Below, in pieces: positions 25,324-60,464 of a stretch of DNA of 64,000 nucleotides. The position numbers and the translations under genes were made by a program. The notes under the pieces were generated by a model. That model did no database searches. It had not been told where the DNA came from and was given only the letters and a program-made list of their open reading frames with translations. Position 1 is the first letter of the stretch, and every line of letters starts with the position of its first letter. The DNA is from Azotosporobacter soli (GTDB lineage: Bacteria > Bacillota > Negativicutes > SG130), in the NCBI RefSeq assembly GCF_030542965.1, contig NZ_JAUAOA010000019.1, positions 1-64,000 of the forward strand. The letters are read 5' to 3'.

Positions 25324-25914
25324 TTATTTTACCTGATTTCCTGCCTGAATGGAATCTAATGCCAAATTCAGTTCCAAGACATTAACGCGCGTTTCTCCGA
25401 GCAGACCGAACTGCGGCCCCTTGGCCAGCGAGTCGACCAGCTTTCGCACCTGCCCCGGAGCCAAGCCGCGCTTCGCTGCGACCCTATCAATTTGCAGATA
25501 AGCGCCGTCGAGCGAAATATCCGGATCGAGACCGCTGCCGGACGATGTCGCCAAATCAGCCGGAATCGTCGCCTCCTTCGCCAAATCGTTTTGCGCGCGA
25601 ACTTCGCTCACTTTGTCTTTGATCGCGGTCATCAGCTTTTCACTGTTCGGCCCGAGATTGCTGCCGCCCGAAGCGGTCGCGTCATAGCCGTTTTCACCGG
25701 CAGCCGACGGGCGACCGATGAAATAATGATCCTGGCTGAAACCTTGACCGATCAATAAAGAGCCCACCAGCTTGCCGTCTTTCTCAAGCAGTGAACCATT
25801 GGCCTGTTTCGGAAAGACGACCTGCGCCACCGCGGTCATTGCCAAAGGATAAACAAGCCCGGTCAGCAACGTAAGTACAACGGTCAGGCAAAAACCACTT
25901 CGTATCATTTGCAT
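25324..25914 (-). CDS. kdpC: KdpC, K+-transporting ATPase subunit C
   Basis: A 196-residue single-membrane-span subunit (hydrophobic residues 8-30) with KdpC hallmarks: TGLVYPLAMTAVAQVVFPKQANGSLL, IGQGFSQDHYFIGRPSAAG, SGGSNLGPNSEKL, ATSSGSGLDPDISLDGAYLQIDRVA, and the C-terminal ARG...LLGETRVNVLELNLAL segment. KdpC stabilises the KdpFABC complex. Its ATG lies inside the end of the HTH gene (ten-base overlap), an unusual coupling. Confidence 0.96.
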   Translation of the reverse strand: MQMIRSGFCLTVVLTLLTGLVYPLAMTAVAQVVFPKQANGSLLEKDGKLVGSLLIGQGFSQDHYFIGRPSAAGENGYDATASGGSNLGPNSEKLMTAIKDKVSEVRAQNDLAKEATIPADLATSSGSGLDPDISLDGAYLQIDRVAAKRGLAPGQVRKLVDSLAKGPQFGLLGETRVNVLELNLALDSIQAGNQVK

Positions 25915-26228
25915 GCTCTCTCCTCCTTTTGCCCTAAAGGCGCGGCAACGCGCCCGACAACCTTGATGCTATGCGGGCCGGTATGGCAGACGACCAGCAT
26001 TTCTCCTTCCTCCGTATACAACAATTCACAGCCTTTGATTATTTCCTCGATTCCGACGCCCAAGGCTTCAGCCAGTGCCTGCAATGTCTTTCGGCCCGGA
26101 CGCCAGACGTCCGCTTCATACGCTTCGATGGCCCGCACCGAGACGCCGACGCATTCTGCCAGCTGTATGCTGGTCATTCCTCTTTGCCGGCGCAACAACT
26201 GCAATGTGTCGCCAATCGCTTGCCACAT
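25905..26228 (-). CDS. Xre-type HTH protein inserted between kdpB and kdpC
   Basis: A 107-residue protein: an N-terminal Cro/CI helix-turn-helix (DTLQLLRRQRGMTSIQLAECVGVSVRAIEAYEADVWRPG), then a ~45-residue C-terminal part (LLYTEEGEMLVVCHTGPHSIKVVG) that could bind a ligand. It sits 16 bases after kdpB and overlaps kdpC, so its expression is tied to the transporter. The standard kdp operon has no gene here. A second, feedback layer of control on kdp or on other K+ genes is plausible but unproven. Confidence 0.88.
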   Translation of the reverse strand: MWQAIGDTLQLLRRQRGMTSIQLAECVGVSVRAIEAYEADVWRPGRKTLQALAEALGVGIEEIIKGCELLYTEEGEMLVVCHTGPHSIKVVGRVAAPLGQKEERACK

Positions 26229-30579: not shown

Positions 30580-30584
30580 CAAAG

Positions 30585-30628
30585 AAAGGGCCGTCGCAAA
30601 ACAGCATGCTGTTTTGCGACGGCCCTTT
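30585..30628. terminator. Perfect 22-bp palindromic terminator
   Basis: AAAGGGCCGTCGCAAAACAG-CATG-CTGTTTTGCGACGGCCCTTT is one continuous palindrome. It ends the DUF4405-like gene and the convergent acetyltransferase gene. Confidence 0.9.
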
Positions 30629-30659
30629 CAATTTTCTGCTCAAACCAGCGTCTCAGCGC

Positions 30660-31423: not shown

Positions 31424-33808
31424 CTACCGGCTCTGGTTTTCCGAAAAACTATTTTTACGGAAGTTCTCTTTGATTAACAACAGAAAGACCAGCACAGCGC
31501 CAAAATAAGCAACGCCGATCCAGCCGATTCCTGCAGCCTGCCCCAATCCAGCCGACCAGGCGAAAACAACCGGTCCGAGCATCTGCCCCAGTTTCTTCGT
31601 CATGCTGAAAAAGCCGAGCGCCTTGCCCTCGCCAAACGCTTTGGTTGCCGGCAGCGTAAGCAAAAACGTATTTTGCGCAATAAAGCCGATGCTGTCGGCA
31701 ATGCCGAACAGCGCGACCGCCGCTATGGCCGCCGCCATCGCTCCCTGCCAGGAAAAGATCAGCAGCGCGCTCACGCCGACGCAGCTGCCGACGATAATCA
31801 AACGCGCGATATTATTGCTGCGGGCGATGATTTTCCCCATCACCGGTCCCAGATAGACGATGCAAATCCCATAAATCATAAACGCCCGTCCGATATTGGC
31901 CGGCGACAATCCCATCTGGTTCGAGTATAAAGGAAAGAAATAATTCAAAAAACCGGTCAGGCAAAGTGCCGACGGAATTGTGATAAATAGCATCACGCCA
32001 ACGACGCCTGCATCGCCAAAGAAAGCGCGCCAACGGCGCGTGGTCTTGCCAGGCACTGCAACCGCTTGCTTGCCTACATCCGCCTTGTCCGGATCTTTTA
32101 CCAGCCACAGCGCAAAGACAGCCGTCATTGCAACGACGCCGAGCGCCACGAAAAACACGCCGGAGTAACCGAGTCGTTCTGCGAGCAGCGCACCGAAGGC
32201 GCAAGCGCAAATATTGCCGGCATAAATACCGGCGTTCATTTGCGCAAAACCTTTCGCCCTAGCTGCAGCCGCCGGACTCGCAGCCACATAGCCGCGCATT
32301 GCCATCCAGGCGAAGCCGAAACCAGTACCAACCAAGGCCCGAGCCAAAATAAAGACTTCGCCGCTCCTCGCCAACCCCGACAGCAAGACGCCGACGAAGA
32401 GGACTGCCGCGCCGACGAAGAAAGGAAAGCGCCAACCCCGTTTGTCGATGATAAAACCGGTCGAGATCGCCGTAAGGCTGGCGCAGAGCATCTCAGCGGA
32501 AATCGGCAACGCAATTAGCGTCTGCTTTGACAGTCCCCAAAGCGGCTGCAGCAGATTCTTCATCTGCATCGGAATGAAGGAGATCGACATGTCTGTGGCA
32601 AGGAAAAATAAAAAGGCCAGCGAGCGGATCATATTCGGATCGGCCGCACCACCGCTTTCCGTTTCGGAATCATCCATTTTCAGCTTCAGCAAACGCAGTA
32701 CAAACAAGACCACCTCCACCATGAAGAAGAACGAAATCAGCGAGACGGTCAGTGCATCCAGCAGGATGTTCTTCACCTTGTCCTCGACATAAGCCTTGGA
32801 CAATACGACATGCAGCTGTGCCTCGACGCCGCTTCGATCCGGGCGCAGCGGCATGCTGTACTGAAAAGCCGCTTCGCCTGACGGCGCTGCCGCCGCGCTC
32901 CCGTGCAAAAGCTGTCCCTGCGCGTCCGAGAGGTAGATTGTCTCCAATTCGGGCACCGATCGGACGATCCGCTGCAGCCATTCATCGACGCCGCGCAAAC
33001 GCTGATACGGCACGCCCATGCCGATTACCCGGTCGACGTCCTGTTGGATGATCGCCGCGGAGAGCAGCGTATTCTTCTGCGCGATAGCGAGATAGGCCGT
33101 CTTGAAAGTGCTGGTGCTGGCCGCCGCATACGACAGTTGCGCTGCGCCCAGTACCGCGATGAAAAGAAACAGAATTCTCTTGCGCCGGAAAGAGCCGTCC
33201 GCAGCCCAGAGCGGAACCAGCCACAGCAGTGCGCCCAGGCAAAAAGCCGCCGCTGCCGCGATTAGCAGCATCGAGCGGATGATCGGTCCCATCTGCCGCT
33301 CGGCCTCTGCATCGACATCCGCTGCCGCAAAGCTCATATCGAGCACGGCAACCCAGTTTTCTTGCCGATCACGTACCGGCAAAAGCAGGTGATAGTCCTT
33401 TTCTTGCAGCACATAGGCATAATCGCGCGCTGCGCGTTCCTGCTGAAAATCGAGTTTCGCAACGACAGCTGGCGGCAATCGCAGGCCCGTGTCTTCGACC
33501 TGCATGCCATATAAGACTCGACCGTCCGGCAAGGCGAGCCGGATATTTTCCAATCCCGGCGCATACGCGGCCGTTTTGCCGAGCAGCTCCTGCATCCCGT
33601 AAAAGTTGGTCACGGGTTTGCCGTAGCGCAGCGCATATTCGATTTCCCGCCGTGTTTCACCGCCAGCCACCGCATAACCGGCCACCAGCGAATCGACGTG
33701 GTTCTTCTTGAAGGAAAGTATGTTCAGCCAACCGCTGAAACCAAGGACGACGACAGTGATGAGCACAGCGATCGCCGTAAATATCAACAACATTCTTTGC
33801 CGCTGCAA
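31424..33808 (-). CDS. Double sensor (Cache-like)-MFS transporter fusion
   Basis: A 794-residue membrane protein. Residues 8-30 form a membrane segment, 31-177 an extracytoplasmic domain with Cache/PAS-like pattern (ENIRLALPDGRVLYGMQV...VAVLDMSF), 178-232 two membrane segments around a short loop, 233-357 a second similar domain (LETIYLSDAQGQLLHGSAA), and 358-385 another segment. From about 405 onward comes a complete 12-TM major facilitator domain (RALVGTGFGFAWMAMRGYVA; IDKRGWRFPFF). I know of no standard MFS transporter with two such sensor domains in front. The start is TTG after AGGAGG. It is 26 bases downstream of a binding-protein gene and probably a receptor or regulated transporter. 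Confidence 0.85.
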   Translation of the reverse strand: MQRQRMLLIFTAIAVLITVVVLGFSGWLNILSFKKNHVDSLVAGYAVAGGETRREIEYALRYGKPVTNFYGMQELLGKTAAYAPGLENIRLALPDGRVLYGMQVEDTGLRLPPAVVAKLDFQQERAARDYAYVLQEKDYHLLLPVRDRQENWVAVLDMSFAAADVDAEAERQMGPIIRSMLLIAAAAAFCLGALLWLVPLWAADGSFRRKRILFLFIAVLGAAQLSYAAASTSTFKTAYLAIAQKNTLLSAAIIQQDVDRVIGMGVPYQRLRGVDEWLQRIVRSVPELETIYLSDAQGQLLHGSAAAAPSGEAAFQYSMPLRPDRSGVEAQLHVVLSKAYVEDKVKNILLDALTVSLISFFFMVEVVLFVLRLLKLKMDDSETESGGAADPNMIRSLAFLFFLATDMSISFIPMQMKNLLQPLWGLSKQTLIALPISAEMLCASLTAISTGFIIDKRGWRFPFFVGAAVLFVGVLLSGLARSGEVFILARALVGTGFGFAWMAMRGYVAASPAAAARAKGFAQMNAGIYAGNICACAFGALLAERLGYSGVFFVALGVVAMTAVFALWLVKDPDKADVGKQAVAVPGKTTRRWRAFFGDAGVVGVMLFITIPSALCLTGFLNYFFPLYSNQMGLSPANIGRAFMIYGICIVYLGPVMGKIIARSNNIARLIIVGSCVGVSALLIFSWQGAMAAAIAAVALFGIADSIGFIAQNTFLLTLPATKAFGEGKALGFFSMTKKLGQMLGPVVFAWSAGLGQAAGIGWIGVAYFGAVLVFLLLIKENFRKNSFSENQSR

Positions 33809-33834: not shown

Positions 33835-35010
33835 TTATTTTGCTGTGTCGATCGACGAATAGATCCTATCGGCGGCCAGTAAGATGTCGAAACTGGGCGC
33901 ATACGCGATTTTTTCCGCCACTTCCATGTTTAAGACGATGTTCGGCGTGTTCTCATAGACCTGCGCTAGCTGACGCGGCGTTTTACCTTGCAGGACTTCG
34001 CGCATCGCCTGTGCGCCGAAGCGACCGATGCCGCGAAAATCGGCCCGCGACACGCTGAGCAGCGCTCCGGCCCTCACTTCGGCCGCACCCTGCTGGGCAA
34101 AGACCGGAATTTTTTTCGCATAAAGCGGCGCGAATGATTCGGCCATGCGGCTGATATCGCGGTCAAAGTACAATGTGCTGTAGACGGCGTCCACGCCCTG
34201 ATCTGCCAGCCACTGATGCGCAGCAAGCATTTCCCGCCGGAAGGTTTCCTTGTTCGCCTGCCGGTCACTGACGAACGCACGCACCAGCGTGAAGCCTCGT
34301 TTTTCTGCGACGCTCTCCACATCGGCCACCGCGGCAAACGCCCGCCCATCGAGCGACGGTTCATAGACCAGGCCTAACTTTTTAAAAGGAATCAGGTCAT
34401 GAAACACTTCCAGTTGCCGCTGATAGCGCGCCGGATCCATATGCGCCCAGACATGTTCGTAACCGGAATCCGTCGCCGAAGAGATAATCCCTGCCTGCAC
34501 CGCATTGCTGGTGGAAAAGATGAACGTCGGCACATGATGGCGGTTATTCGCCAGCGCCTGCCCGGCCTGCGTTCCCATCACGATCAGCAGATCGATGTCG
34601 CCCCGGTTCAGCCGTTCGATAATCTCTTCCTGTAACGCCGTCTGTTCCTCTTTGCTGCGGTGGGCGAAACTGTAGTATCCATCGGGAACGAACGCCAGCG
34701 CCGCGCCGCTCGGCTGCGCCGCCAGCCAGTTCCAGATGCTGCGGCTGTCCGACTGACCGTCCTGATACGGCAGCCCCTGCGTACTGCCGATCAGACCCGC
34801 TTCCTGCAGACCCTCCGCCAACCCCGCCAAGGTACTGGCATAGTTGGCGAATTCGCCGGACTCACAGTAAGCGACGCGCGCTGCCTTCAGCGGCAGCTTG
34901 CTTTGTCCGCTCTGGTCCGGCAGCGCTTGCGCACGCAAAAGAGCGCCTGCGGTGAAAAGACAGAGCGTCACGCCAAGAAAAAGCCAGAGCGTCCTCTTTT
35001 TCCTATTCAC
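33835..35010 (-). CDS. ABC-type substrate-binding protein, TrpX/PF04392-like
   Basis: A 391-residue exported protein (signal anchor about 7-28) with the two-lobed fold of the PF04392 family: ARVAYCESGEFANYASTLAGLAEGL, DIDLLIVMGTQAGQALANNRHHVPTFIFSTSNAVQAGIISS, KKLGLVYEPSLDGRAFAAVADV, and GVDAVYSTLYFDRDISRM. No ABC permease or ATPase gene is nearby, so it may present a ligand to the sensor/MFS protein or phosphatase. Its GTG start overlaps the phosphatase stop codon (GTGA). Confidence 0.85.
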   Translation of the reverse strand: MNRKKRTLWLFLGVTLCLFTAGALLRAQALPDQSGQSKLPLKAARVAYCESGEFANYASTLAGLAEGLQEAGLIGSTQGLPYQDGQSDSRSIWNWLAAQPSGAALAFVPDGYYSFAHRSKEEQTALQEEIIERLNRGDIDLLIVMGTQAGQALANNRHHVPTFIFSTSNAVQAGIISSATDSGYEHVWAHMDPARYQRQLEVFHDLIPFKKLGLVYEPSLDGRAFAAVADVESVAEKRGFTLVRAFVSDRQANKETFRREMLAAHQWLADQGVDAVYSTLYFDRDISRMAESFAPLYAKKIPVFAQQGAAEVRAGALLSVSRADFRGIGRFGAQAMREVLQGKTPRQLAQVYENTPNIVLNMEVAEKIAYAPSFDILLAADRIYSSIDTAK

Positions 35011-36368
35011 GCTTCGTCAGCCGTGCCCCGGTATTCAAGAACCAGGATCGTGATGTCGTCAAATTGTTCCGCACCATTTGAGAACGTCTCGACCGCTTCG
35101 ACGATCTCGTTGACGACGGTCCGTGCGCCGCTCGAAGGACACTTTTGAATCGCCTGCTCCAAGCGCAGCGTTGTGAACTGCTCTTCGTTCACCGCCTGCG
35201 CTTCGGTCACGCCATCGGTATAGATCACCAAGCGATCGCCCGGTTCTAAGCGCAGCTCCTGCTGGTCGTAGCTAAAATCGTCAAGGATGCCGAGCGCCAC
35301 GCCCGGCGTACAGGGAATCGCATTCAGGCTACCGTCGGCACGGTGCAGGTACGGCGGATTGTGTCCGCCGTTGCTGTAGGTCACCTCGCCGGTCTTTATG
35401 TTCAGGATGGCGCAGAACATCGTGACGAACATCGTTTCCTCGTTGCCGCGGCAAAGTTCGCTATTAGTCTTGAAAAGCAACTCTTCACTGCCGATGCCCG
35501 GTCTCGCCTTCGCCCGGATCAGCGTCTTCGTCACCGCCATGAAGAGTGAGGCCGGAACGCCTTTGCCGGAGACATCTCCGATCAAAAAGCAGAAATGGTC
35601 ATCGTCGATAAAAAAGAAATCATACAGATCGCCGCCGACTTCCTTGGCCGGCGACAAATATGCGTAGATATCGAGTTCCTTTATATTGGGGAAAGCCGGA
35701 AAAATTTTCGGCACCATGCTCATCTGAATATTACGCGCGACCTGCAATTCACTTTCAATCCGTTTTTTCGTTTCCTGATTCTTTCGTTCGGCGATCAGGT
35801 TCTTCGTGATAAAAATAAAAGTGGCAACCGCAATAGCATTGCCGATGATCAACGGCAGACGTATTCCCTGCTCGATCGCCAGTGCCTTCGCAAAATCAGC
35901 CAGGAAAAGGAAAGTCAGACCTGAAGCAAACATCTCATAGAATACCGTAAAAGAAACGGCTTCCGTCACGCTCACCAAATCGTCCTTCTTGCGCCATGCG
36001 GCATACAGTCCGGCAAATAAACCCGCCAGTACCGTAGCCAGCGTCGCCGACCAGACCGATGCGCCGCCCTGAAGAAAGCGGTCAATTCCGCCGATCAGGC
36101 CGACGCCAAGGCCGACCCACGGTCCGCCGATCAAACCGCCCAGAATCGGCCCCGTCGGGCGCAGACTGACCAAGCCGCCGTAGAACGGAATCGCGTTAAA
36201 CGCGCCGTAGAGAGAAAACAAACCGAATACAGCTACCAGCAGCGCTTGCTGCCTGCGACTTTTCTTTTTCTCCAGGATATTCGAATAAAATTGCGTGCGC
36301 GTCAAAAAATAAGCGATGACGCTCATCACGCAAGCCGTGTTCAGTAACGAACTCATGATTTTAAACAT
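35007..36368 (-). CDS. 5TM (LytS-type)-SpoIIE/RsbU PP2C phosphatase
   Basis: A 453-residue membrane phosphatase. Six membrane segments occupy residues 1-190, including the LytS/YhcK 5TM signature (LRPTGPILGGLIGGPWVGLGV, then IGGIDRFLQGG). After a short coiled linker (ELQVARNIQMSMVPK) comes a PP2C/SpoIIE domain: AKEVGGDLYDFF and IGDVSGKGVPASLFMA with metal-binding Asp residues, SNGGHNPPYL, and YTDGVTEA...FDDITILVLEY. By analogy with RsbU/SpoIIE it dephosphorylates STAS anti-anti-sigma proteins, three of which are encoded upstream. The sensing part is membrane-embedded. Confidence 0.92.
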   Translation of the reverse strand: MFKIMSSLLNTACVMSVIAYFLTRTQFYSNILEKKKSRRQQALLVAVFGLFSLYGAFNAIPFYGGLVSLRPTGPILGGLIGGPWVGLGVGLIGGIDRFLQGGASVWSATLATVLAGLFAGLYAAWRKKDDLVSVTEAVSFTVFYEMFASGLTFLFLADFAKALAIEQGIRLPLIIGNAIAVATFIFITKNLIAERKNQETKKRIESELQVARNIQMSMVPKIFPAFPNIKELDIYAYLSPAKEVGGDLYDFFFIDDDHFCFLIGDVSGKGVPASLFMAVTKTLIRAKARPGIGSEELLFKTNSELCRGNEETMFVTMFCAILNIKTGEVTYSNGGHNPPYLHRADGSLNAIPCTPGVALGILDDFSYDQQELRLEPGDRLVIYTDGVTEAQAVNEEQFTTLRLEQAIQKCPSSGARTVVNEIVEAVETFSNGAEQFDDITILVLEYRGTADEA

Positions 36369-36599: not shown

Positions 36600-37055
36600 T
36601 TAAATTTTTTCATCCACTTTTCCCCGTGCGCCGTTCATAACGGAATATACTTCGCACGCCGTCGGTTGCTGCCCTTCGGCGACGCTTTCGTTAAGCTGCT
36701 CCAGTTGCGCTTTCGCGCGGGAAAGGCTGATGCTCCGTACCGCCTCCTCCACACTCGCGCAAAAGGTAAAGAGGCTGCTGAAACCAACCATGTCAAACAC
36801 TTCTTGCACGCCGGGCCGGAGTCCGACCAGTACCATATGCCCCGCAGCCTTGTCGACCCGTTTCAAGGTCGAGAGAAAGACACGCAAGCCGGCGCTCGAG
36901 ACATATTCATTCGCTGAAAAATCGCAGATCAGCTCATTTTCCCCGTTCGCGAGAAGCGCCGCCAGACTGTTTTCCAGTTCCTTGGCATTGTTGGCGTCAA
37001 TTTTTGCCGCAAGCGTAACAACGCTTGGCATTTTATCGGCCTGCTTCGTCAACAC
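36600..37055 (-). CDS. STAS-domain anti-sigma-factor antagonist (third of three)
   Basis: About 151 residues: a STAS domain (VVTLAAKIDANNAKELENSLAALLANG, ELICDFSANEYVSSAGLRVFLSTLK) with the expected phospho-acceptor Ser as the second Ser of YVSSAGL, plus a ~45-residue C-terminal extension (KAQLEQLNESVAEGQQ). The reading frame could start further upstream at 37067-37070, but the GGAGG ribosome site lies within those codons, so a GTG at 37055 or TTG at 37052 is favoured. The gene begins a few bases after the second STAS gene. Confidence 0.85.
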   Translation of the reverse strand: MLTKQADKMPSVVTLAAKIDANNAKELENSLAALLANGENELICDFSANEYVSSAGLRVFLSTLKRVDKAAGHMVLVGLRPGVQEVFDMVGFSSLFTFCASVEEAVRSISLSRAKAQLEQLNESVAEGQQPTACEVYSVMNGARGKVDEKI

Positions 37056-37073
37056 ACTCGCCTCCATCACTTT

Positions 37074-37622
37074 TTATACGGCCGCGGTCGTCGGAATGAC
37101 GCAGACTTCGCTGCCTTTGATCTTTTCTTCGAGATTCCGCTTAATCTTATTGATGCTTTGCTGTACGGCCGCCATTCGTTTGTTGCCGTCGAACTCGAGG
37201 AACAGATCGATGCGCAGACAATCTTCCTGGCGTTGCAAGCGAATTTCATGCAAGTCGACATACTCGTCGAATTCGCTCGACAGTTCCTTTAAGATGCTGA
37301 CCTGAAGCGCCTCGCCAAAATCATAGTATTTATAGATGTGCGTCAGTCCCGCCGCGACGAAGACTTCACGCACCGCAGGCTGCAGACGACAAAAAGCCAT
37401 CTGGCCCTGGCGTTCATGCACCTCTTTAAACGCCGCAAGAAATACGTTCAGCCCTGCAGGCGAAACGCGTTCTGTCGCAGACAAGTCGCATAGGATCTTC
37501 ACATGCCCTGCCTGGATCAAAGACGTAAAGAGAGCCTGCGTCTCTTCGGCCGCCGCACCGTCCAGTTCGACCGGCAGACGCACCACCTTGATCGCGCCGA
37601 TCTCACTCAGCAAAATTTCCAC
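37074..37622 (-). CDS. STAS-domain protein with Pro at the phospho-acceptor site
   Basis: A 182-residue protein: STAS domain (IKVVRLPVELDGAAAEETQA, VKILCDLSATERVSPAGLNVFLAAFK) and a longer C-terminal tail of about 75 residues (ELSSEFDEYVDLHEIRLQRQ, then a basic stretch). In RsbV/SpoIIAA the acceptor is the Ser in the D-S-(S/T)-G motif; here the aligned residue is Pro55 (S54-P55-A-G-L). Phosphorylation at the usual site is therefore impossible, although Ser54 precedes it. The start GTG 37622 follows AAGGGGG. Confidence 0.82.
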   Translation of the reverse strand: MEILLSEIGAIKVVRLPVELDGAAAEETQALFTSLIQAGHVKILCDLSATERVSPAGLNVFLAAFKEVHERQGQMAFCRLQPAVREVFVAAGLTHIYKYYDFGEALQVSILKELSSEFDEYVDLHEIRLQRQEDCLRIDLFLEFDGNKRMAAVQQSINKIKRNLEEKIKGSEVCVIPTTAAV

Positions 37623-37643: not shown

Positions 37644-38060
37644 TTACTGCGGCCGGTTGATCGTCAGCGTCAGGATATTGCGGTTCTCTGCGCGTCGGTA
37701 TTCCACCTTGTCCACCAGTTGGTGCACCAGATAAATGCCGAGACCGCCGATATCGCGTTCTTCCAGTGCGCCTTCCAGATCCGGCGGTTTCGCCGCGGTC
37801 GGGTCGAACGGCTGCCCCTCGTCGCTGAATATGAGCTCTACATGGTCCGGTTCTTTCGCAATATCGACCTGAATCGTCCCGCTTGACCCGGGATACGCAT
37901 AGTGGCTGACATTAACGACCAATTCTTCCGTGACCAGTTCCAACTGCATCGTCTTCCGCTCGCTCAAGCCGACATCTCTCATGCTTTCCTTGACAAAATC
38001 GATGATCTCATAGACCGTTTCATCTTTTGCGCAAAAAATCTGCTGTGCCCGCTCCGTCAT
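37644..38060 (-). CDS. RsbW-like anti-sigma factor / serine kinase
   Basis: A 138-residue GHKL ATP-binding protein. The N-box is ELVTEELVVNVSHYAYPG, the G1 box FSDEGQPFDP and the G2 box IGGLGIYLVHQLVD. This is the length and layout of RsbW/SpoIIAB-type serine kinases that phosphorylate STAS partners and hold a sigma factor. No sigma factor gene is adjacent, so the bound target may be elsewhere or not a sigma factor. The ribosome site GGAGGGG is eight bases upstream. Confidence 0.9.
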   Translation of the reverse strand: MTERAQQIFCAKDETVYEIIDFVKESMRDVGLSERKTMQLELVTEELVVNVSHYAYPGSSGTIQVDIAKEPDHVELIFSDEGQPFDPTAAKPPDLEGALEERDIGGLGIYLVHQLVDKVEYRRAENRNILTLTINRPQ

Positions 38061-38105: not shown

Positions 38106-38423
38106 CTAGTTCACGGCCGCCAGCGCTTCTTCCTTATTGGAACAAATCGTGAAGATCTGGCTGAAACCGGCCATGTCAAACACTTCGCGCACAAACGGAC
38201 TCAGCGAACAGATCACCAGCTGACCGCCGGATTTCGTCATCAGCTTCATCGCACTGAGAAAGACGCGCAAGCCGGCGCTCGAGATGTAGCTGTTGTCGCT
38301 GAAATCGCAGATCAATTTCTGCGCGCCGCCTTGAATCGCTTCGAGCAGCTGCTCCTCTACCTGCTTCGCATTGTTCGAATCCACACGCGGCAATACCGTA
38401 ATGCATTTCACATTGTCTGTCAT
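38106..38423 (-). CDS. STAS-domain anti-sigma-factor antagonist (first of three)
   Basis: A 105-residue single STAS domain of RsbV size: CITVLPRVDSNNAKQVEEQL, KLICDFSDNSYISSAGLRVFLSAMK with acceptor Ser49, then GGQLVICSLSPFVREVFDMAGF. It closely resembles the third STAS protein in the core. The start ATG follows AGGAGG. It heads the phosphatase/STAS/kinase run, and its 200-base upstream gap probably holds the promoter. Confidence 0.92.
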   Translation of the reverse strand: MTDNVKCITVLPRVDSNNAKQVEEQLLEAIQGGAQKLICDFSDNSYISSAGLRVFLSAMKLMTKSGGQLVICSLSPFVREVFDMAGFSQIFTICSNKEEALAAVN

Positions 38424-38624: not shown

Positions 38625-39842
38625 TCAGCCTTTCAAGCGGACCACCGGACTGCTTTCATTAAACCGGATACGCTGACCGTCCGGCAATTGCAAGACCGGT
38701 TCGGCAAAGCCGCCTTCTTCGAATTCCTCAATCACGGCTTTTCTTCCATCGGCCAGGATGACGCGCTGACCGACCATCTGCTCTTTGCTGTTTTTCAACA
38801 AAACGGAGCAGACAAGCGGATCCAGTTTACCCGCCATATCCTTGACCAATTGTTCTATCACCACGAACGGCGTCACGCCGTGGTGATAGACGCGATTGGA
38901 CATCATCGCATCATAGACATCGGCAACCGCAATGATCCTCGCAAAGAGGCTAATCGCGCGTCCCGGCAATTTTTCCGGATAGCCGCTGCCGTCGACCCGT
39001 TCATGGTGCTGCAGGATGCCGAAGAGCAACTCGCGCTCATAACCTTGCAGCGCCAGTATCTCAAGGCACTTGCGCGGATGGTTGCAGACAATTTCGCGTT
39101 CGTCCGGCGTCAGTTCGCCGCGTTTATTCAGGATCGCGGGCGGAATCGCCATTTTCCCCAGATCATGCAGCAAACCTGCCACCGTCAGTTTGCGCAGCTT
39201 CTCATCGCCCAGTCCCATCCACTGCCCGATCAACGCGGACAGCAGCGCCACATTCACCGAATGGCGAAACGTATAACCGGCAACGCCGTAATCGTGATTG
39301 AACAGGATCAGCCGCACGTCGCCCTTGACGAGCGCGAAACATTCTTCCGCCAGCGCGTCGATCTTCTCCTTAGGAAAGGCGCCTTCGCCCTCTTCTAAGA
39401 TTGCTTCACTGTTCAAACGAAATTCTTCAACCAGTGCATCATACTTTTCTTTGAAGCTCGTGCCGGCTCCGGCATGAAAAAAATAAGCGATCTTGCGCAA
39501 AAAATCCTCGCTTACAAACGGCTTGAGAATGTAGTCTTTCGCGCCGTAACAGAGCGCAGTTCGTATCGTTTCCCTGTCCGCGTTGCCGGATAGGATAAAG
39601 ACCGCCGGCCATACTTCGCCCGGCTTCTCCTGCATTCCACGCAGCGCAGCCAGACCGCCCCGCTCGCCTGAATCGACGTCAAGCAGCAAGAGATCGAGTT
39701 CCGCATAACGCCAAAGATTGGCAAAATAGTCTTGTACGCTGTCAAGTTCCGCAACCTGAAAGCCTTCCCGTTCGAGCAAGAGGCGAACCTGCAGACGCAT
39801 CAGGTGCGATTCGTCAATCAGCAGAATTTTTTTTGCCGCCAT
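38625..39842 (-). CDS. Response regulator with HD-GYP output domain
   Basis: A 405-residue protein: receiver domain (KILLIDESHLMRLQVRLLLEREG; phospho-acceptor Asp in LDLLLLDVDSG; ALCYGAKDYILKPF), a linker helix region, and an HD-GYP phosphodiesterase (FRHSVNVALLSALIGQWMG, LLHDLGKMAIPPAI, NHPRKCLEIL, QHHERVDGSGYPEKLPG). It probably lowers c-di-GMP on phosphorylation. The start ATG follows AAAGGATG. No cognate kinase is adjacent; it precedes the STAS cluster on the same strand by 200 bases. Confidence 0.92.
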   Translation of the reverse strand: MAAKKILLIDESHLMRLQVRLLLEREGFQVAELDSVQDYFANLWRYAELDLLLLDVDSGERGGLAALRGMQEKPGEVWPAVFILSGNADRETIRTALCYGAKDYILKPFVSEDFLRKIAYFFHAGAGTSFKEKYDALVEEFRLNSEAILEEGEGAFPKEKIDALAEECFALVKGDVRLILFNHDYGVAGYTFRHSVNVALLSALIGQWMGLGDEKLRKLTVAGLLHDLGKMAIPPAILNKRGELTPDEREIVCNHPRKCLEILALQGYERELLFGILQHHERVDGSGYPEKLPGRAISLFARIIAVADVYDAMMSNRVYHHGVTPFVVIEQLVKDMAGKLDPLVCSVLLKNSKEQMVGQRVILADGRKAVIEEFEEGGFAEPVLQLPDGQRIRFNESSPVVRLKG

Positions 39843-40024
39843 TGCCGCACATCCTTTCCGCAGCATTTCATCTGTAATATTTTTACAACAGTTCGCTCTT
39901 TATCGGCGAAAAACCTTTTACCCGGATACAATAATCCCGCCTTTCGCAGGAAAATTTTGTCAGATGTAGAACGATATCATAAACAATACTCGGCTGAATT
40001 CATCATTTGCAAGGGGGTGTTTTC

Positions 40025-57595: not shown

Positions 57596-57829
57596 AAATG
57601 TGCATTGATAGGGATGATCCACTGCCGCCTGACGCTCCAGAGAGCTGTCGTTTGCTGAAAGACAGCGCGCAGGACAATGGAAACTCGCCCTTGAGCATTC
57701 ACCCGAAAGCAATGGCGAGTAGGCGTGAACGGGTTTCTCGCCGTTATCATGAGACTGCAGCCGCGACCGCGCGACTGTACAAAGTGGATATGTTTCATAT
57801 CAACAAGAGTGGTACCACGGAAGTTTGAC
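57596..57829 (+). ncRNA. T-box riboswitch leader, predicted tRNA-Leu (CUC specifier)
   Basis: The canonical T-box sequence AAGAGTGGTACCACGG is at 57805-57820. Stem I opens at 57597 (AATG pairing CATT at 57696-57699), with the GATGA motif at 57613-57617, an AGAGAG motif at 57638-57643 and the distal stem GCTGTC/GACAGC. The specifier is read from GGAAA-CTC-GCCCTTGAGC as CTC (57684-57686), aligned by the GAA...TGAG context seen in characterised T-boxes; that makes it a leucine codon. The antiterminator bulge reads TGGT, which expects discriminator A73, true of tRNA-Leu. ACT is the less likely alternative specifier. A TATAAT box at 57581-57586 puts the start near 57593. Confidence 0.88.
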
Positions 57830-57874
57830 GCTTTCGTCTCTTAGCAGCCATGCTCGGAGACGGAAGCTTTTTTT
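57830..57874 (+). terminator. T-box regulated terminator
   Basis: GCTTTCGTCTC (57830-57840) pairs with GAGACGGAAGC (57857-57867), followed by seven T. The CGTCTCTT segment would instead pair with the T-box AAGAG when uncharged tRNA is bound, giving the antiterminator. Confidence 0.88.
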
Positions 57875-57938
57875 GTCCCGGCGCAGGCTTTCAGTCTCGT
57901 CAATCGATACGAATAAAATGCATTGTGAGGGAATCATC

Positions 57939-60464
57939 ATGAAACTTGCTTTTTCAACACTCGGCTGTCCCGATTTCAGCTGGAAGGACATCTATTCCAT
58001 GGCCAAGGACTTCGGCTTTGACGGCATCGAAGTGCGGGGCCTCGGAAACATCGCCGCTCACGTCAGTCCGTTTATCGCGACCCAGTTGCCGCATACGATC
58101 GAAAAGCTTGCCGAGCTGCGCCTCGAAATCCCCTGCTTGTCACCCGGCTGCTGCTTGAAATTCGCAGAAAAAACCGAAGAAACGCACGCCCAGTTGGTAC
58201 AGCACATTGAACTGGCCGCACAGCTCGGCACGCCCTATGTCCGCATTCTCGGCGACCTGGCCGCGCAGGCGGACGGCGAAGTCGACGATACGATCGTTCT
58301 CGCCGCTTTGAAACGACTCGTGCCGATCGCCGAAGCGCACGGCGTAACGTTGTTGGTCGAGACAAACGGCGTCTATGCCGACACCGCCCGTCTTTGCCGC
58401 CTCTTGAATCAGATCGCCAGCGACGCGGTCGCCGCGCTCTGGGATATGCATCACCCCTACCGCTTTGCCGGTGAAACGCCGGGCCAGACCGTGCAAAATC
58501 TCGGCGCGTATATCAAATACGTCCACGTCAAGGATTCGATCATGGAAGACGACGTCATCCGCTATAAGATCATGGGCGAAGGCGATCTGCCGATCGATGC
58601 GATGATGCTCGCGCTGAACTCGATCAACTACGACGGCTATGTCTCTCTCGAATGGCTCAAACGCTGGGCGCCCGACCTCGCCGACGCTGGCGTCGTCTTC
58701 CCGAACTTCGCCAACTACATGAGCCGCTTTCTCGAAACCAGCGCCACTAAGGACCGCCTCTTTGACAACAACGCCAAAACCGGCAAATACGTCTGGGAAA
58801 AAGACGCGCTGATCGATCTGACCTTCCCGCAGGTGCTCGACCGGATGGTGACCGAATTTCCCGACCAGTATGCGTTTCGCTATACGACGCACGACTACAC
58901 GCGCACCTATGCGCAGTTCCGCGACGATGTCGACGAATTCGCCCGCTCGCTGATCGCGCTGGGCGTGCGTCCGGGCGACCATGTTGCAATCTGGGCGACC
59001 AACGTGCCGCAATGGTTCATCACCTTTTGGGCAACGACCAAGATCGGCGCAGTGCTGGTCACGGTAAATACCGCCTACAAAATCTATGAAACCGAATATC
59101 TGCTGCGCCAGTCCGACACCCATACGCTCGTCATGATCGACGGCTACAAAGATTCGGACTATGTCGGCATCATCAAGGAACTCTGTCCGGAGCTCGAAAC
59201 GGCAGAAGCCGGAAAACCGCTGCACATGAAACGATTACCGTTTCTGCGCAACGTCATCACGATCGATTCCAAACAAAAAGGCTGCCTGACCTGGGACGAA
59301 GCGGTCGCAATGTCCGACCGCGCACCGCTCGAAGAAGTCTATCGCCGCGAACGTGCGATCAACAAACACGACGTCTGCAACATGCAGTACACGTCCGGTA
59401 CCACCGGCTTTCCCAAAGGCGTCATGCTCTCGCACTACAATGTGGTTAACAACGGCAAAAACATCGGCGACTGCATGGACCTCTCGACCGCCGACCGCAT
59501 GATGATCCATGTGCCGATGTTCCACTGCTTCGGCATGGTTCTCGCGATGACCGCCTCGATGACGCACGGCGTCACGATGTCGCCGCTGCCGTATTTCTCG
59601 CCGAAACAGTCGCTCGACTGCATCAACCGCGAACAGATCACCTGCTTCCACGGCGTGCCGACGATGTTCATCGCGATGCTGGAACATGCGGATTTCCCCA
59701 CGACCGACTTCTCGCACATGCGCACCGGCATCATGGCCGGCAGCCCCTGTCCTGTCAAAGTCATGCAGGACGTCGTCGACAAAATGAACATGAGCGAGAT
59801 CACGATCGTATATGGCCAGACCGAATCCGCGCCCGGCTGCACGCAAAGCCGCGTTGACGACTCCATCGCGCTGCGCGTCTCCACGGTCGGACGCGAACTG
59901 CCCGGCGTCGAATGCAAGATCGTCGACCCCGAAACCGGTGCGGATCTGCCCGATAATGTCGACGGCGAATTCGTCGCCCGCGGCTACAACATCATGAAAG
60001 GCTACTACAAGATGCCCGAAGCGACGGCCGCCGCGATAGACAAAGACGGCTGGCTGCATACCGGCGACCTGGCCCGCCGCGACGAAAACGGCAACTACAA
60101 GATCACCGGCCGCATCAAGGACATGATCATCCGCGGCGGCGAGAACATCTATCCCAAAGAAATCGAGGATTTCATCTACACGCATCCCAAAGTAAAAGAC
60201 GTTCAGGTCATCGGCGTACCGGACAAACAGTACGGCGAAGAAATCATGGCCTGCGTTATTGCCAAGGACGACAGCGGCTTGAGCGCCGACGAACTGAAAG
60301 AATATATCCGCAGCCATATCGCCAAACACAAGACGCCGCGCTACATCGATTTCGTCAACGAATTCCCGATGAACGCCGCCGGAAAGATCATGAAATACAA
60401 AATGCGCGAACAGGCCGTCAAACGTCTGGGCCTCGAACGAGATAACGAAATAGAAACCGCATAA
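57939..60464 (+). CDS. TIM-barrel isomerase-like domain fused to acyl-CoA synthetase
   Basis: An 841-residue protein. Residues 1-260 form a xylose-isomerase/AP-endonuclease-2-like barrel with a putative metal set E141, D169, H196 and E238 (LLVETNG, ALWDMHH, YVHVKDS, VSLEWL). Residues 290-835 form a full AMP-binding acyl-CoA synthetase with the P-loop YTSGTTGFPKG (484-494), YGQTESAP, WLHTGDLARRDENG, IKDMIIRGGENIYPKEIE and the C-terminal AAGKIMK lysine. No frameshift separates the halves. The start ATG at 57939 is seven bases after GAGGG and lies behind the predicted leucine T-box. The substrate is unknown. The enzyme could activate a branched-chain acid such as isovalerate; this is inference. 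Confidence 0.88.
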   Translation: MKLAFSTLGCPDFSWKDIYSMAKDFGFDGIEVRGLGNIAAHVSPFIATQLPHTIEKLAELRLEIPCLSPGCCLKFAEKTEETHAQLVQHIELAAQLGTPYVRILGDLAAQADGEVDDTIVLAALKRLVPIAEAHGVTLLVETNGVYADTARLCRLLNQIASDAVAALWDMHHPYRFAGETPGQTVQNLGAYIKYVHVKDSIMEDDVIRYKIMGEGDLPIDAMMLALNSINYDGYVSLEWLKRWAPDLADAGVVFPNFANYMSRFLETSATKDRLFDNNAKTGKYVWEKDALIDLTFPQVLDRMVTEFPDQYAFRYTTHDYTRTYAQFRDDVDEFARSLIALGVRPGDHVAIWATNVPQWFITFWATTKIGAVLVTVNTAYKIYETEYLLRQSDTHTLVMIDGYKDSDYVGIIKELCPELETAEAGKPLHMKRLPFLRNVITIDSKQKGCLTWDEAVAMSDRAPLEEVYRRERAINKHDVCNMQYTSGTTGFPKGVMLSHYNVVNNGKNIGDCMDLSTADRMMIHVPMFHCFGMVLAMTASMTHGVTMSPLPYFSPKQSLDCINREQITCFHGVPTMFIAMLEHADFPTTDFSHMRTGIMAGSPCPVKVMQDVVDKMNMSEITIVYGQTESAPGCTQSRVDDSIALRVSTVGRELPGVECKIVDPETGADLPDNVDGEFVARGYNIMKGYYKMPEATAAAIDKDGWLHTGDLARRDENGNYKITGRIKDMIIRGGENIYPKEIEDFIYTHPKVKDVQVIGVPDKQYGEEIMACVIAKDDSGLSADELKEYIRSHIAKHKTPRYIDFVNEFPMNAAGKIMKYKMREQAVKRLGLERDNEIETA

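Follow-up and report, generated by a model that had tools for sequence, protein, structure and literature searches.

A gene for an MFS transporter with two extracytoplasmic Cache sensor domains ahead of its transport domain lies in the window, the whole 64,000-nt stretch of Azotosporobacter soli DNA analysed here, alongside genes for an orphan periplasmic binding protein and a SpoIIE-type phosphatase. Because the sensor-MFS, binding protein and phosphatase genes are kept together in several phyla, often beside genes for the delivery of toxins or antimicrobials, they probably constitute a sensing device that has so far gone unrecognised. The explanation that we tentatively favour is a Cache-gated MFS transceptor which would be assisted by the binding protein and would feed a partner-switching circuit.

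Results

The sensor-MFS gene starts with a TTG codon at 33808, preceded 6 nt upstream by a Shine-Dalgarno sequence (AGGAGG). Its span and 794-residue length are as given in the initial annotation; the strand, which had not been stated, is minus (Table 1). Hydropathy identifies two polar stretches (25-179 and 231-352) flanked by four TM segments, which were placed by hydropathy and charge at residues 6-24 (TM1), 180-198 (TM2), 212-230 (TM3) and 353-371 (TM4). The resulting layout is TM1, Cache (31-178), TM2, TM3, Cache (231-352), TM4 and MFS (395-780), in which TM2 and TM3 are joined by a short cytosolic RRKR loop. The distribution of charges fits a protein whose N-terminus and both MFS ends are inside and whose sensors are both outside, in agreement with the earlier proposal that membrane segments separate two extracytoplasmic domains. 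We rejected a sequencing or start-site artefact on the grounds of the strong RBS with TTG, the unbroken frame and the end-to-end homologues. A single dCache loop is excluded, as the sensors are set apart by two TM hairpins in both the AlphaFold model and the hydropathy analysis.

Structure prediction assigns both sensor regions to the Cache/PDC fold. AlphaFold modelled residues 1-394, using 38 homologues, at a pLDDT of 83.5, and the model of sensor 1 has the long helix and antiparallel sheet, set between TM helices, that are typical of this fold. Its structural matches (VIA Z) include 5ere (14.4), WalK (13.1), KinD (12.6), CitA (11.4) and DcuS (11.2). Sensor 2 was modelled separately, as one domain can fill the structural match list of the whole N-terminal region. 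By itself it gave a pLDDT of 85, with best VIA matches to a WalK-YycH model (Z 11.0), the PAS/Cache domain 3cwf (9.0) and KinD and WalK (8.9); the lower top rows were almost all Cache/PDC sensors, so that this domain too is predicted to adopt the fold. A plain Foldseek search with sensor 2 was weak (best E 2e-3). The profiles of the two sensors align with each other (hhalign probability 97.6, E 3e-12), indicating that the protein contains a duplicated Cache-TM unit. Within sensor 1, G63-K64 is invariant in a YGK motif and a DG turn is conserved. No Pfam family scored above threshold in residues 1-394, the sensor profiles had no match above threshold among Pfam or PDB sequence profiles, and the sensor regions of the 38 homologues did not reach the curated cut-off of any Pfam Cache family, with sub-threshold sCache_like and dCache_1 matches in two of the 38 N-terminal regions each. 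The claim that two Cache-like domains are fused to an intact MFS domain is thus backed by structure prediction, internal homology and conservation, and the outcome that would have spoken against it, models lacking a Cache/PAS fold, was not seen.

The MFS half matches Pfam MFS_1 at residues 397-720 (E 9e-28; 97.6 bits against a cut-off of 33.4) and gives 11 clear TM peaks by hydropathy plus a weak one at about 736-755, in keeping with the complete 12-TM domain initially described. With 12 TM segments, the MFS_1 match, motif A and the TM4 arginine it belongs to the MFS superfamily, as a putative transporter. A degenerate MFS domain is ruled out for the window protein, in which motif A and R490 are intact. 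R490 of the TM4 motif is near-invariant among homologues, whereas the motif-A Asp is absent in the Azospirillum clade, and transport may therefore not persist everywhere. The nearest solved relatives by sequence are NorA and the vesicular amine transporters; since the closest MFS relatives are drug/H+ antiporters, export is likelier than import. The earlier suggestion that MFS proteins seldom bear such sensors fits this genome, in which MFS_1 is matched 37 times and the sensor module occurs once.

Table 1. Features of the sensor-MFS operon, the adjoining partner-switching cluster and related cyclases. Coordinates refer to the window unless a locus is named.
Feature	Position	Strand	Evidence
20-bp palindromic hairpin after GNAT gene, probable terminator	30584..30629		
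GNAT-fold acyltransferase, 238 aa	30660..31376	-	Profile match GNAT YqjY, E 7e-7; neighbour in 25/38 loci
Dual-Cache sensor MFS protein, 794 aa	31424..33808	-	ORF, RBS, MFS_1, homologues
MFS domain, residues 395-780	31469..32626	-	Motif A GFIIDKRGWR (451-460) intact, R490 conserved
Sensor domain 2, predicted Cache/PDC fold, residues 231-352	32753..33118	-	AlphaFold, VIA, hhalign
Sensor domain 1, predicted Cache/PDC fold, residues 31-178	33275..33718	-	AlphaFold; VIA Z up to 14.4
Orphan periplasmic binding protein, ABC_sub_bind, 391 aa	33835..35010	-	Pfam E 7e-17
5TM-5TMR_LYT membrane receptor fused to SpoIIE/PP2C phosphatase	35007..36368	-	Catalytic Asp motifs present
STAS protein, anti-anti-sigma type, SSAGL motif	36600..37070	-	
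STAS protein, variant SPAGL motif, C-terminal extension	37074..37622	-	
RsbW-like HATPase_c_2 kinase	37644..38060	-	Pfam
STAS protein, SSAGL motif	38106..38423	-	
Response regulator with HD-GYP domain	38625..39866	-	Pfam; 201 nt upstream of cluster
Dual-Cache cyclase	L035:13176-14993		Guanylate_cyc E 2e-57
Dual-Cache cyclase	L039:13121-15013		

From upstream to downstream, the cluster comprises genes for a STAS protein, the HATPase kinase, two further STAS proteins and, after a 231-nt gap, the 5TMR-SpoIIE phosphatase, the binding protein, the sensor-MFS protein and the GNAT enzyme, followed by the hairpin. The SpoIIE and binding protein genes overlap by 4 nt, the latter is separated from the sensor-MFS gene by 26 nt, and 47 nt lie between the sensor-MFS and GNAT genes. 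The phosphatase, kinase and antagonists of a partner switch are present with their catalytic motifs: the PP2C phosphatase retains GGDLYD, GDVSGKG, YTDG and FDD, the RsbW-like kinase retains its N-box and G-boxes, and SSAGL is found in two of the three STAS antagonists, with SPAGL in the third. The fusion of 5TMR to SpoIIE has already been noted in the literature (PMC11109136). No gene for a sigma factor or other target is encoded adjacent to the partner-switching cluster. By its position, the HD-GYP response regulator is a possible member of the circuit. The binding protein has a TrpX-like match below cut-off, and no ABC permease or ATPase gene was found beside its gene. A LuxI-type identity for the GNAT gene was unsupported, its PDB profile matches being ordinary GNATs. 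The C-terminal extension of the variant STAS protein weakly resembles a zinc-transporter dimer domain (E 0.009). Elsewhere in the window, a gene for a 107-aa HTH_3 regulator (25905-26228, minus strand) separates kdpB from kdpC in the kdp operon and shares 10 nt with kdpC, and an 879-aa ORF (57825-60464, plus strand) encodes a xylose-isomerase-like TIM barrel fused to an AMP-binding acyl-CoA ligase.

Alignments across all domains of the sensor-MFS protein were obtained for 37 proteins, which argues that the architecture is more than chance. A domain-architecture search had been proposed at the outset, and full-length relatives with the same domain order indeed occur in several phyla: in Sporomusa, of the same class (up to 51% identity), a Sporomusaceae MAG (63%), other Bacillota, an Atribacteria MAG, Rhodoferax, Azospirillum, Aureimonas, Tianweitania and Methylobacterium. 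The full architecture and gene order are kept across phyla at 26-63% identity. Plasmid records annotate relatives just as 'MFS transporter'. Among 398 sampled Bacillota genomes the sensor profile was matched in 14, three of them weakly and by sensor 1 only, and viral contigs contained no relative of the sensor-MFS protein. In a tree of the sensors, the cyclase-fused and stand-alone versions sit on long branches and the deep forks are open, so the order of the fusions is not settled by the tree. Two loci (L028, L029) encode a shorter version of 637-640 aa, whose match begins at about residue 169 and which is preceded by a dCache-HAMP-SpoIIE gene and a D-Ala-D-Ala ligase-like gene. A Nitratidesulfovibrio plasmid homologue (L022, 4246-7296) is 1016 aa long, with a longer N-terminal region; a gene close by is annotated as a type III secretion chaperone.

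The gene neighbourhood is conserved as a cassette, the counts here referring to 38 loci with context, in which Azospirillum is oversampled. An orphan periplasmic binding protein is adjacent in 36 of these: ABC_sub_bind in 32, within 1.65 kb of the gene, and Peripla_BP_6 in four of the six loci without ABC_sub_bind (one of these loci is cut upstream). Neither type neighbours the gene in L028 or L029. The window genome has two ABC_sub_bind genes in all, one of which is in the sensor-MFS operon. Other close neighbours are GNAT (25 loci), alanine racemase (16), GCS2-type ligase (five) and D-Ala ligase (three), and in most loci a GNAT or GCS2 enzyme gene follows the MFS gene; the L031 racemase scores above the TIGR00492 cut-off. 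SpoIIE is nearby in just about one third of the 38 loci, and SpoIIE, binding protein and MFS genes are contiguous in the window and in L030, L038, L046 and L049. In Aureimonas, Tianweitania and Methylobacterium loci (L044, L045, L047, L051, L065, L019) a divergent GCS2-type ligase gene takes the place of GNAT and racemase downstream of the MFS gene, and the binding protein is encoded on the other strand.

The sensor module also occurs apart from the MFS domain. In two Rhodoferax MAGs (L035, L039) a second gene, shortly downstream of that for the sensor-MFS protein, encodes the dual sensor in fusion with a class III adenylate/guanylate cyclase. A 399-residue stand-alone module is encoded between the GNAT and 5TMR-SpoIIE genes in L032, and in the eCIS-type clusters of L066 and L100 others are encoded close to a binding protein. 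A module that occurs on an MFS protein, on a cyclase and by itself beside phosphatases is best read as a sensor; to judge from these sequence comparisons, the N-terminal dual-Cache region is a signal-input module. The sensing role first proposed for it gains support from the cyclase fusions and from the stand-alone copy beside SpoIIE.

The gene or its sensor is found in clusters with baseplate J, Tail_P2_I, DUF4280 or related genes in L031, L041, L056, L058, L066, L096 and L100. One of these (L113, the same cluster as L096) encodes sheath, gp19 tubes, Pvc16_N, CIS_tube and base V, and is an eCIS. NHLP-type export genes lie beside the gene in L033, L034, L036, L042, L059, L060, L101, L102 and L106, with representatives in L033 and L060 exceeding NCBIfam cut-offs (TIGR03796, TIGR03797, TIGR03794). 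Among the 398 Bacillota genomes, eCIS (Pvc16_N) was detected in 14 and NHLP ABC1 in 19; leaving out the window genome, eight of ten sensor-MFS carriers have eCIS and/or NHLP, against 23 of 388 others (Fisher p ~2e-8, uncorrected for phylogeny). The window genome itself has no Baseplate_J, Pvc16_N or TIGR03796 match, and the cassette would therefore serve something else there.

Discussion

The anatomy of the protein fits a transceptor, that is, one molecule which would both transport and signal. This reading, proposed at the outset for the single protein, is supported in part by our analysis, and the conserved partner genes, which the initial annotation did not include, are the more informative. 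We envisage that the binding protein picks up a small ligand on the outer side of the membrane and docks on the paired Cache domains; the enzymes of the cassette and the TrpX-like binding family suggest that this ligand may be amino-acid-like. The sensors would in response switch the MFS domain to another state, this domain might move a related small molecule, more likely outwards, and the membrane complex would set the activity of the SpoIIE phosphatase. Dephosphorylation of the STAS proteins by SpoIIE could in turn release or trap whatever the RsbW-like kinase targets. Elsewhere, this input unit is found beside genes for eCIS or NHLP bacteriocin export, or joined to a class III cyclase. As the sensor-MFS protein is without a cytosolic output domain, any signal would have to pass to neighbours such as SpoIIE, the partner suggested by operon position.

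That missing output domain counts against the transceptor explanation, as do the loss of the motif-A Asp in Azospirillum, the scarcity of SpoIIE across loci and the lack of eCIS/NHLP markers in this genome. If the phosphatase senses through its own 5TMR and receives no signal from its neighbour, the Cache domains might solely regulate the MFS domain allosterically, for instance in feedback from an exported product of the GNAT enzyme. A gated exporter of this sort would explain a protein without an output domain next to a SpoIIE that already bears a membrane sensor, the retention of motif A, and the GNAT or GCS2 gene that comes next in most loci. The presence of the sensor module on a cyclase and alone beside SpoIIE, however, speaks for a use in signalling, and we consider it rather unlikely that gated export is the whole function. 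Transporter-like receptors such as UhpC and yeast Snf3/Rgt2 provide a model for a different possibility, in which the MFS domain has ceased to transport and acts as a ligand-binding or relay domain in the membrane. The Azospirillum homologues without the motif-A Asp and the linkage of the sensor module to regulators are compatible with this, but the window protein and most Bacillota relatives retain both motif A and the TM4 arginine, which makes it quite unlikely.

Since 36 of the 38 loci encode an orphan binding protein, of ABC or Peripla_BP_6 type, and the window gene has neither an ABC permease gene nor an ATPase gene next to it, one might also suppose that the Cache domains are a docking platform which passes ligand from the binding protein to an MFS importer. 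We regard this as improbable: L066 has the binding protein and the sensor without an adjacent MFS gene, and the MFS half resembles drug and amine antiporters in sequence. An accidental fusion of ordinary parts, with functionally unlinked neighbours, is highly improbable in the light of the full-length architecture and gene order maintained across phyla at 26-63% identity.

The transceptor that we favour would differ from each of the known systems that it resembles. In LuxP-LuxQ type systems a binding protein works with a membrane sensor, and here too an orphan periplasmic binding protein gene adjoins a membrane sensor gene; the sensor in this case is joined to a transporter, and docking is putative. 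The Cache sensors of WalK, KinD, CitA/DcuS and chemoreceptors share the fold and flanking TM helices, but the output here is an MFS domain, and two single Caches on separate TM hairpins take the place of a single dCache loop. The window cluster has the PP2C phosphatase, STAS and HATPase kinase of the RsbU/SpoIIE-RsbV-RsbW system, with the differences that there are three STAS proteins, no adjacent sigma factor gene, and a sensor-MFS and binding protein in addition. TRAP/TTT systems also pair a binding protein with a secondary transporter, whereas the membrane part here is an MFS protein in place of DctQM or TctAB subunits. CbrA and other fusions of transporters to histidine kinases (SLC5-STAC-HK; the Amt-HK of Kuenenia) likewise carry transporter and signalling parts on one polypeptide (PMC13022988, PMC7096432, PMC5764959), and such fusions have been termed rare transceptors (PMC13022988). 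Those of the CbrA type receive their input through the transporter and give their output through a cytosolic kinase, whereas the sensor-MFS protein has two extracytoplasmic sensors before the MFS domain and no cytosolic output. Transceptors of the 5TMR/S-component fold have a counterpart in the neighbouring phosphatase, which shares the 5TM-5TMR on SpoIIE (PMC11109136), but that fold is not MFS, and in the window the 5TMR belongs to the partner gene. Mostly narrow, multi-term searching of the open-access literature returned no publication on a Cache-MFS fusion or on an MFS protein with alanine racemase in eCIS, which is a weak negative.

The regulators of eCIS respond to as yet unknown signals according to a survey of these systems, whose main text does not mention MFS proteins, racemase or substrate-binding proteins (PMC8213781). 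It is conceivable, if distinctly doubtful, that the cassette forms a self-contained small-molecule circuit, in which the GNAT enzyme, aided by an alanine racemase, a GCS2 ligase or a D-Ala ligase, would make an amino-acid-like signal, the MFS half would export it, the binding protein and the Cache halves of that same polypeptide would perceive it, and the output of the partner switch or cyclase would control weapons of antagonism, such as eCIS and NHLP bacteriocins, where these are present. If the transceptor explanation is right, a family of exporters hidden under the label 'MFS transporter' would be receptor-gated and have a binding protein of its own, an arrangement that is undescribed in the papers we found. 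The cassette would then be a candidate for the sensor that acts upstream of eCIS and NHLP bacteriocin clusters, and it makes the question of which signals regulate eCIS testable by gene deletion.
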